This document shows, one piece after another, positions 10,621-12,496 of a stretch of DNA of 64,000 nt. A program made the position numbers and the translations under genes. Every line of letters begins with the position of its first letter. Within the stretch, counting starts at the first letter, position 1. Location of the stretch: assembly GCF_020520425.1 (NCBI RefSeq), contig NC_079489.1, forward strand, positions 19,244,001-19,308,000, in the 5' to 3' direction. A model generated the notes under the pieces. It was not told the DNA's origin and made no database searches. It saw only the letters and a list, made by a program, of their open reading frames with translations. This stretch comes from Spinacia oleracea. Taxonomy: Eukaryota > Streptophyta > Magnoliopsida > Caryophyllales > Amaranthaceae.

Positions 10621-11540
10621 TCGGTTAAATTTTAATCCCTCCGTCCCTTAATACTCGCACCGTTTGACTGGACACGCTTGCCCATGCACAACTTTGACCA
10701 TTAATATCTTTTACTACATATTATAAAAACTTATAAAATAGGAAATTTTGTGAAATACTACCTTAATGTTTGGACGTTTTGTGAATTACTACCTTATAAA
10801 AACTTTTTTATATTTTCCTACCTTATAAGTTTGATATGTTTTAGTAACACTACCTTGTAACAGAAAACGTTAAATCTCTCCGTTTGTGGGTTCCAACCCA
10901 ACACTTTATTTCATTTTTCTTTCCTCTTTCTCTGTTCTCTGTTTTTTGCTTCTTTGTTCTCAATCTTTGACCTCTCATTTCTTAATCATCTTGCTCGAAA
11001 TCCCCTCTCAATATTCCTCTACCAATCTCATTCTCAACATGATGTTTTATGGCACGCTTATCTTCCAAGCATTTCTGGCAAGAGAGCTGCAGCTATTTTC
11101 CAAGCATCTCTGCCAAGAGATCACATTGGCACCAAAAAGAAAGCCACGACAGTTCCAACTTCCAACAGTGCTTGCAACTACATCAAAATATCAAATAAAA
11201 GAGAACTTATCCTGATATAAACTACTTAGTAATATCCTAATACGTACCAATAACTAGTAAAACACATAAGACAAAGGACACTAGGAAATAAACCCATAAT
11301 TCAGAGAAAATTCCACAATAAAATTGAAAAATAGGTAACCTGCAAGCTTTGAAACATCACAAAACCAACAACCAACCAAAGGCAGACTACCGTTCAGTTA
11401 CTTATAAAAGGCTATTGTATGTCTACTACTCCAAATCTCATCCTAACAGTCTGCAATTTTTCACACTGCAAAGCATATATACTCTAGTAAGCAAGACAAC
11501 AACACAAGATCTCATGGAGGAAAGTGATTGTAGAATAAAC

Positions 11541-11601
11541 CTTCTATGTAGTTTTTAACTTGCTCTTCAGCAAGTGAGTCCCGTATTGATTCCAGTAAAG
11601 C
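11541..11601 (-). pseudogene. Captured exon-like fragment inside the MULE, donor gene unknown
   Basis: On the minus strand, 61 nt bounded by an AG acceptor (after TTTTAG) and a GT donor encode an uninterrupted ALLESIRDSLAEEQVKNYIE. The composition and the flanking splice signals look like a real exon copied from a host gene. I do not recognise the protein. Confidence 0.45.
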
Positions 11602-11866
11602 CTAAAAGTATACAAGAGACTTAGAAATCAATGACAATTATATAATATATGAGGACTTGTGCAGCTAATAACTTGTTTCTCTCTTTTGGTTTCTACCTAT
11701 CAATGTTAATTATCATCAGAAAAATTGGCAAAACTTCAAGAGTACTACAGAATAAGTTCCTAGACTCCTAGCAATAAGATTTCTTCTTCCTGCCTTGCTC
11801 CTGGTTACTAGTCACTGTTTACTATTTCCAATTCTTATGATAAGCCGCAAATCGATTAACTTGCAG

Positions 11867-12081
11867 GAAATCGAAGAGGAATCAGTGGGTGCAAAAAATA
11901 TTTGGTCATGGTCTCGGTGGCTCAAAGAGAAGCCGGGCTGCAGAAGTGCATAATGAAAGGGTGAGCTCAAACTTTGTAAATTAGTATCTGTTGTTGTGAT
12001 AGTTGGTTTTGGGATCTAATTTGTGCCTTTTGGAACGTTTCTAACAGAGAAGAACGGATAGAATTAATGAGAAAGAGAAGT
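11867..12081 (+). pseudogene. Captured fragment of a PIF-type bHLH transcription factor gene, frameshifted
   Basis: An exon-like stretch (11867-11960) begins after a TTGCAG acceptor and encodes EIEEESVGAKN, then in another frame [14 protein letters not shown], ending at a GTGAGC donor. After an intron-like gap, AACAG at 12043-12047 precedes RRTDRINEKEKW. Phytochrome-interacting bHLH factors carry an acidic EES segment followed by [23 protein letters not shown], with an intron in the basic region, so the match is specific. The copy has lost the reading frame and the Leu-Ser-Glu of the basic region, and stops after the start of helix 1. It cannot make a factor; it could still give antisense or small RNA. 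Confidence 0.75.
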
Positions 12082-12496
12082 GGAGTACAGAGATTGAGAA
12101 AGAGAAAAGATAAATGGAATAAAGTCGTTGGGTGGGTCCCACAAACGGAGAGATTTAACGTTTTCTGTTACAAGGTAGTGTTACTAAAACATATCAAACT
12201 TATAAGGTAGGAAAATATAAAAAAGTTTTTATAAGGTAGTAATTCACAAAACGCCCAAACATTAAGGTAGTGTTTCACAAAATTTCCTATAAAATATTAT
12301 TATTTTGAAAATGTATATTGAGATGAAGCCAACAATATATTATATACTAACATTTGTTTTCATATACTATAAATAGAATATGGTCAAAGTGAATTATATG
12401 AATAGTGTATAAAAGTCAAAACGGTTCGAGTGTTAAGGGACAAAGGGAGTAAAACATTTAAAGTTTACTTTTACTCTAATGTCGGAGTACAATATT

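Follow-up and report, generated by a model that had tools for sequence, protein, structure and literature searches.

Pack-MULEs were reportedly described by Jiang et al. in 2004 and in later work, and rice has Pack-MULEs composed of pieces from several donors. The comparison made here draws on four papers on these elements (PMC13317346, PMC8277862, PMC3310237, PMC3903597). The mechanism by which gene pieces are picked up is debated, gap filling and fork stalling being the two proposals (PMC8277862). Long inverted ends (TIRs) with internally repeated units are found in Muta1 of Aedes (PMC5225508), in MuTAnT of Medicago (PMC4486113) and in tandem-TIR MULEs (PMC3310237). In the P superfamily, Galileo carries multiple THAP binding sites in its long TIRs, for which a higher-order complex was proposed (PMC3688188).

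The window analysed here is a stretch of 64,000 nucleotides of the spinach genome (Spinacia oleracea, C3:19244001-19308000). It contains at 10741-12287 a Mutator-like element (MULE) of ~1.5 kb, which is very probably a non-autonomous Pack-MULE that was filled in at least two rounds of capture, presumably by gap repair, would have been mobilised in trans by a MuDR-type transposase and is likely to be a functionless passenger.

Structure of the element and its insertion site

The element and the repeat around it are arranged as follows (positions of the window).

10630..10731, plus strand: left part of the Stowaway-like host MITE (terminal arm 10630-10665; inverted arm 12419-12454, 86%)
10732..10740, no strand: left copy of the target site duplication (TSD), TATAAAATA, same as 12288-12296
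10741..10962, plus strand: left TIR, length 222 bp, near-identical to the right TIR in its outer 150 bp
12068..12287, minus strand: right TIR, from the inverted-repeat alignment with the left TIR
12288..12296, no strand: right TSD copy, 9 bp, same as 10732-10740
12297..12455, minus strand: right part of the host MITE, with the inverted arm

The two TIRs (222 and 220 bp) are 91.5% identical in inverted orientation over 223 alignment columns, with only two mismatches in the outer 150 bp and a similarity that decays inward. An earlier note, made by a model from the letters of the window, had given inverted ends of about 170 bp; these hold up in the alignment. The perfect 9-bp duplication that it had reported is exact on both sides of the element. 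Long inverted ends and a TSD within the 8-11 bp range are the hallmarks of a MULE. Capture by a Helitron or by an LTR element was ruled out by these same two features. The arms that flank the element (10630-10665 and 12419-12454) are 86% complementary and resemble both ends of a Stowaway-type MITE, so that the element is inserted inside a MITE. A gene with ankyrin repeats in its first exon (8756-9256, minus strand), presumably resembling plant ILK-type kinases, has its 5' end ~1.5 kb from the element.

Captured gene fragments and their donors

Donors were searched in spinach's own assembly (894 Mb, 242 contigs). From left to right, the interior comprises five pieces, of which ClpB, DUF819 and golgin are in sense on the minus strand and PIF on the plus strand.

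10984..11063, minus strand: ClpB C-terminal fragment, 85% over 80 nt to L045 4830-4751
11079..11339, minus strand: DUF819 gene fragment, exon and intron, two pieces, 81.5% and 83% to L039
11328..11449, no strand: repeat piece D, 84-85% to C1:71834080, C1:47684586 and C4:62468895
11447..11746, minus strand: TMF-type golgin fragment, 86.7% to L010 4863-5156
11744..12072, plus strand: PIF-type bHLH fragment, 82.6% to L009 4630-4962

The ClpB donor matches PF10431 (ClpB_D2-small, E 3.4e-22), the DUF819 donor PF05684 (E down to 1e-23) and the golgin donor PF12325 (TMF_TATA_bd, E 9.2e-24). In genome searches, matches were obtained at E 1.2e-93 for golgin, at E 3.6e-35 for DUF819 and at E 3e-28 to 5e-30 for piece D, and the PIF donor gene matched the element at E 7.9e-89. 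The ClpB piece by itself reaches only E 1.3e-6, and its identity is given by the 435-nt ClpB stretch of the sister copy described below. Three stretches have no donor (10963-10983, 11064-11078 and 11236-11274) and are too short to hold a transposase, so the element encodes none; the last of them is missing from the DUF819 donor gene and present in the loci L040 and L041. Fragments of at least four host genes (ClpB, DUF819, golgin, PIF) thus lie between the TIRs and have donors in the genome, where the earlier note had counted two donors. Together with the TIRs and the TSD, these pieces and their donors bear out its Pack-MULE call.

The PIF piece includes exons 11867-11960 and 12048-~12072, the retained intron 11961-12047 and also the upstream intron. 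The earlier reading of 11867-12081 as a PIF fragment was right as to PIF, the actual extent being 11744-~12072, and wrong for 12068-12081, whose residues ('EKEKW' / 'KEKW' after RRTDRINE) are those of the inner TIR. A host PIF gene with matching exon-intron structure, on which that reading had been made to depend, exists (L009). Relative to it, the piece has one extra T, which is the frameshift that had been noticed, as well as substitutions and a 6-nt in-frame deletion (HNQSER in the donor, HN-ER in the element). The donor matches the HLH domain PF00010 at E 1.2e-7, and its basic region, read by eye from the alignment, continues across the intron that the element has kept as well. It also contains ELVWENGQI, which resembles the phytochrome B-binding motif of PIFs (ELxxxxGQ). 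By its bHLH, basic region and ELxxxxGQ motif, the donor qualifies, as judged from its sequence, as a member of the PIF family. Taken alone, the joined PIF piece reaches no more than E 0.7 for HLH, which misses the Pfam cut-off. Four PIF segments compared with the window by tblastn each had their best match in the PIF piece (E 0.001, 0.002, 0.010 and 0.036). PDB searches with two short peptides of the element gave no matches, and a PIF bHLH segment retrieved 21 PDB sequences, MYC2 at the top and then animal bHLH proteins, with PIF absent among them.

The golgin piece consists of exon 11541-11601, the start of the next exon and the flanking introns. This 61-nt exon had been recognised before as an exon of unknown origin; it is one indeed, and its origin is the TMF-type golgin gene, in which it measures 60 nt, one base having been inserted in the element. 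By the window alone the exon is indistinguishable from chance, since open AG..GT stretches of 55-150 nt number 104 in 10963-11866, against a resampled mean of 157 (sd 53, n=200). A chance open stretch is refuted by the golgin genome match and the alignment. A CtsR_C match of the exon peptide (E 0.046, below cut-off) was taken as chance. The PIF, golgin and DUF819 pieces retain intron sequence, which shows that DNA was copied and not mRNA; they also carry indels. The splice-bounded pieces that the earlier note had described on both strands are confirmed by the donor alignments.

Order of the captures

A sister copy of the element is located at C6:93813183-93819870 (match to the element E 1.5e-150). 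It has a left TIR (89%), 435 and 170 nt of ClpB, directly thereafter 822 nt of PIF, and the inner right TIR. A LINE (reverse transcriptase PF00078) splits its ClpB, with a ~15-nt repeat seen by eye at both junctions, and another repeat occupies the place of its outer right TIR, which is missing. In the element the PIF homology is limited to 330 nt, and that of the sister takes in another 504 nt of the gene on the upstream side; the PIF/TIR junction is identical in both. No golgin match was found in the sister copy at E 1e-3. Within the PIF piece there are 28 sites at which element and sister share a state that differs from the gene; the element agrees with the gene at 13 sites and the sister at 10. 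Intron distances are 0.069 between element and sister, 0.17 between element and gene and 0.19 between sister and gene. Both lines of evidence argue for a common origin of the two PIF pieces.

The comparison shows an ancestor that read TIR-ClpB piece-PIF piece-TIR, an order kept by the sister with longer pieces, and an element in which the inner ClpB and PIF parts are gone and DUF819-D-golgin stands in their stead. As a longer ClpB adjoins a longer PIF in the sister, with the PIF/TIR junction common to both copies, the ClpB-PIF pair is the older arrangement and the replacement of the middle the later event. The serial capture proposed in the earlier note thereby obtains its order, ClpB-PIF and then DUF819-D-golgin. 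Since copies occur at two different places, the ClpB-PIF chimera was mobile: it was mobilised after capture, as a Pack-MULE should be, its window copy being flanked by a TSD and placed inside the MITE. For the DUF819-D-golgin round, only the window copy was found among the candidates scored, and this second round may have happened in place, after the jump. It may also have copied a ready-made DUF819-D chimera, because the loci L040 (C3:112832500-112842000) and L041 (C3:60355000-60364500), 98% identical over ~8.6 kb, carry a DUF819-D fusion related to that of the element. ClpB matches of 85 to 515 bp are present in other members of the TIR family (L013, L014, L015, L027, L028). In L014, L015 and L028 the match ends within one base of the end in the window element; this common end may be a shared deletion.

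An internal break in the element would have been mended by copying unrelated loci, with switches at few matching bases, either before or after the jump to the present site. The few shared bases seen by eye at the piece junctions are what template switching would be expected to leave, and the replaced middle of the chimera fits the prediction of internal-break repair by that route. The interest of the sister copy is that it fixes the order of events: an older two-gene chimera, and then one with sequence from new donors in place of its middle.

Alternative readings

It is very unlikely that PIF and golgin were captured together from an already joined locus instead of serially. Ready-made chimeras are possible, as the DUF819-D fusion at L040 and L041 illustrates, but PIF in the sister continues in gene order where the element switches to golgin, and the PIF/TIR junction and the 28 derived sites are common to both copies. 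Moreover, of 564 candidates 40 were scored, and these included no second place matching both the PIF and the golgin pieces.

Two functions could be imagined for such an element. Transcription from the TIRs could give rise to small RNA that silences the donor genes of PIF, as the earlier note had suggested, and those of golgin and DUF819; a transcript running rightward would have PIF in sense and the remaining genes in antisense orientation, and a leftward one the reverse. This is improbable. The orientation of the captured pieces would allow it, and exact runs of at least 21 nt are shared with the donors of PIF (three runs, 26 exact 21-mers), golgin (three runs, 19) and DUF819 (one run, 4). 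However, the identity to donors is just ~82-87%, ClpB shares no exact 21-mer, one PIF run is mostly intron, and one golgin run is intron and another about half intron. Wholly exonic 21-mers exactly common to the element and the PIF gene number seven. That the captured pieces make up a new protein-coding gene or exon is scarcely credible. Two plus-strand frames at 10861-11220 are free of stops over 119 and 113 aa, and transcription of Pack-MULEs is on record (PMC8277862); yet relative to the donors there are indels in the golgin and DUF819 exons and in the main exon of PIF, the pieces are divided between the two strands, and the stop-free frames cross a TIR and antisense gene pieces. Most likely the element serves no function in the host and is carried along as a passenger.

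Related elements and presumed source of transposase

The other copies with the same inverted ends that the earlier note thought worth seeking exist, with at least 102 matches to the element in the genome, mostly to its TIRs. An exact 9-bp TSD directly at the ends, each time of different sequence, was observed in 12 of the 16 relatives fetched; the remaining four (L020, L021, L024, L026) have no exact 9-bp TSD at their ends. A related family of 6.7 kb shares its first 12 bases with the element and has exact 9-bp duplications in two of three fetched copies. One copy of it was tested (L046, exact TSD) and has the MuDR-type transposase domains to be expected in a relative of a MULE (PF03108 E 3e-12, PF10551 E 2.2e-6, SWIM E 1.4e-6). 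Its reading frames are interrupted by introns or damage, and its TIR, leaving aside the first three motifs, is 84% identical to that of the element. Transposase domains of MULEs abound in the spinach genome (150 scored out of 1,960 candidates), so that it is by its ends alone that the 6.7-kb family is singled out as partner. A MuDR-type transposase, for example from this family with its similar ends, would mobilise the element in trans and would dock on four regularly spaced sites per TIR.

A spaced motif in the terminal repeats

The putative docking sites are copies of TACCTT, which start at +18, +49, +78 and +110 of the TIRs.

10759..10856, plus strand: left TACCTT array, starts at 10759, 10790, 10819 and 10851 (31/29/32)
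12172..12269, minus strand: right TACCTT array, mirroring the left one, minus-strand starts at 12269, 12238, 12209 and 12177, with equal spacing

Clusters of three or more TACCTT occurred in 0 of 30 resampled windows (order-2). In the whole genome, the four-fold 31/29/32 pattern is matched exactly 124 times and 0 times backwards. For the three-fold 31/29 pattern the counts are 1,555 and 0, the former being inflated by the copy number of few families and corresponding to far fewer independent origins. The control three-fold 30/30 pattern gave 5 matches and 9 backwards. With free spacings (29 values each), the three-fold search returned 22,324 matches, with obvious satellites among the matches listed, and 872 backwards; the 1,555 matches thus fall in one of 841 spacing pairs. 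Among the loci fetched by the 31/29 pattern, 20 of 21 carry the exact array at each of their two ends. In 17 of these 20 an exact 9-bp TSD is located no more than one base from the position 18 nt outward of the first TACCTT; one of these TSDs is a run of T. The comparison of ends covered six representative families. Once the motif is set aside, families A, B and F are 79-84% similar to one another and all other pairs 39-54%, which defines four diverged TIR lineages. The first three sites occur in all six families, which were selected by them, and the fourth is exact in four; the tip is one base off register in the representative of family F (L053). Over 24 sites, conservation is highest in two blocks of columns, TTTG (-12 to -9) and CTACCTT (-1 to +5). 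In family A, all four sites are exact in 25 of 34 ends (17 elements). Because the families were found by the motif, its conservation is partly an effect of how they were chosen, which does not apply to the tip position, the TSDs and the contrast with 30/30.

The exact and unequal 31/29/32 spacing in at least four diverged lineages is, by a slight preference, ascribed to a ruler-type plant MULE end, the footprint of a fixed multimeric transposase assembly. Such an end would have a GG tip followed by three or four bipartite sites TTTG - 6 nt - ACTACCTTATAA, loosely kept, with TACCTT cores at exactly +18, +49, +78 and often +110, or about three helical turns per site. The alternative is that common descent with slow loss by indels, instead of functional constraint, lies behind the register. 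If the register does reflect transposase binding, it would provide a testable model of the complex formed at MULE ends, as well as an easy search pattern for such elements. The four-fold ACCTT register was found 0 times in viral contigs.

Other elements of the window

Scanning the window for four ACCTT at 0/31/60/92 gave six places scoring at least 16 of 20. Four of 20 resampled windows (order-3) held a place of at least 16, the best reaching 17, and the places at 31902 (minus strand, score 17) and 53171 (score 16) are therefore insecure alone; 14531 (score 18) and the three exact ends are secure. A second MULE-type element of 5.2 kb lies at 32105-37346, with ~160-bp TIRs, CAACAAAA on both sides, internal repeats and the same TACCTT register as the Pack-MULE. 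A relic at 14512-14690 has CCTT/CCTG at 31/29/32 (14532, 14563, 14592, 14624) and a short inverted arm, and a copy related to it is found at 53068-53185. At 31540-31921, a minus-strand MULE-like end GGCAAATTTGCC shows GACATT/GACCTT/CACCTT, spaced by 31/29 likewise, and has its subterminal part duplicated in tandem (~170 bp); its register score was equalled once in 20 resampled windows. The retrotransposon at 20872-26049, copia-like by eye, has 260-bp direct repeats that are 100% identical and an open frame of 1488 aa, and is a recent insertion. Finally, 53348-62624 contains repeated stretches 84-94% alike and minus-strand frames, one of which matches a zinc-binding dehydrogenase domain; it is probably a tandem gene duplication.

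Comparison with known systems

The long TIRs with repeated units of Muta1, MuTAnT and tandem-TIR MULEs resemble those of the spinach element. In Muta1, nine 12-bp units are separated by spacers of 3-4 bp (PMC5225508), whereas in spinach three to four sites are spaced by exactly 31, 29 and 32 bases across diverged families. Galileo (PMC3688188) is a precedent for several transposase sites per end, the spinach sites being putative; it differs from the spinach MULE by its superfamily and its binding domain. The 31/29/32 register is absent from the available text of PMC3310237, PMC6446971, PMC3903597, PMC4486113, PMC5225508, PMC8277862, PMC13317346 and PMC3688188. On this thin literature basis, an exactly spaced TIR motif common to many elements of a genome may be new.

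A literature search on Pack-MULEs with bHLH or phytochrome gave no title on PIF capture among those listed, and one for PIF motif strings gave no papers. Gene capture of this kind is already known, and the element is a richer Pack-MULE than the earlier note had seen. It shares with other Pack-MULEs the TIRs, the 9-bp TSD, the lack of a transposase, the intron-bearing gene fragments and the donors elsewhere in the genome. It is distinguished from them by a capture order resolved through a sister copy and by four identified gene donors within 1.5 kb, a difference of degree and not of kind.
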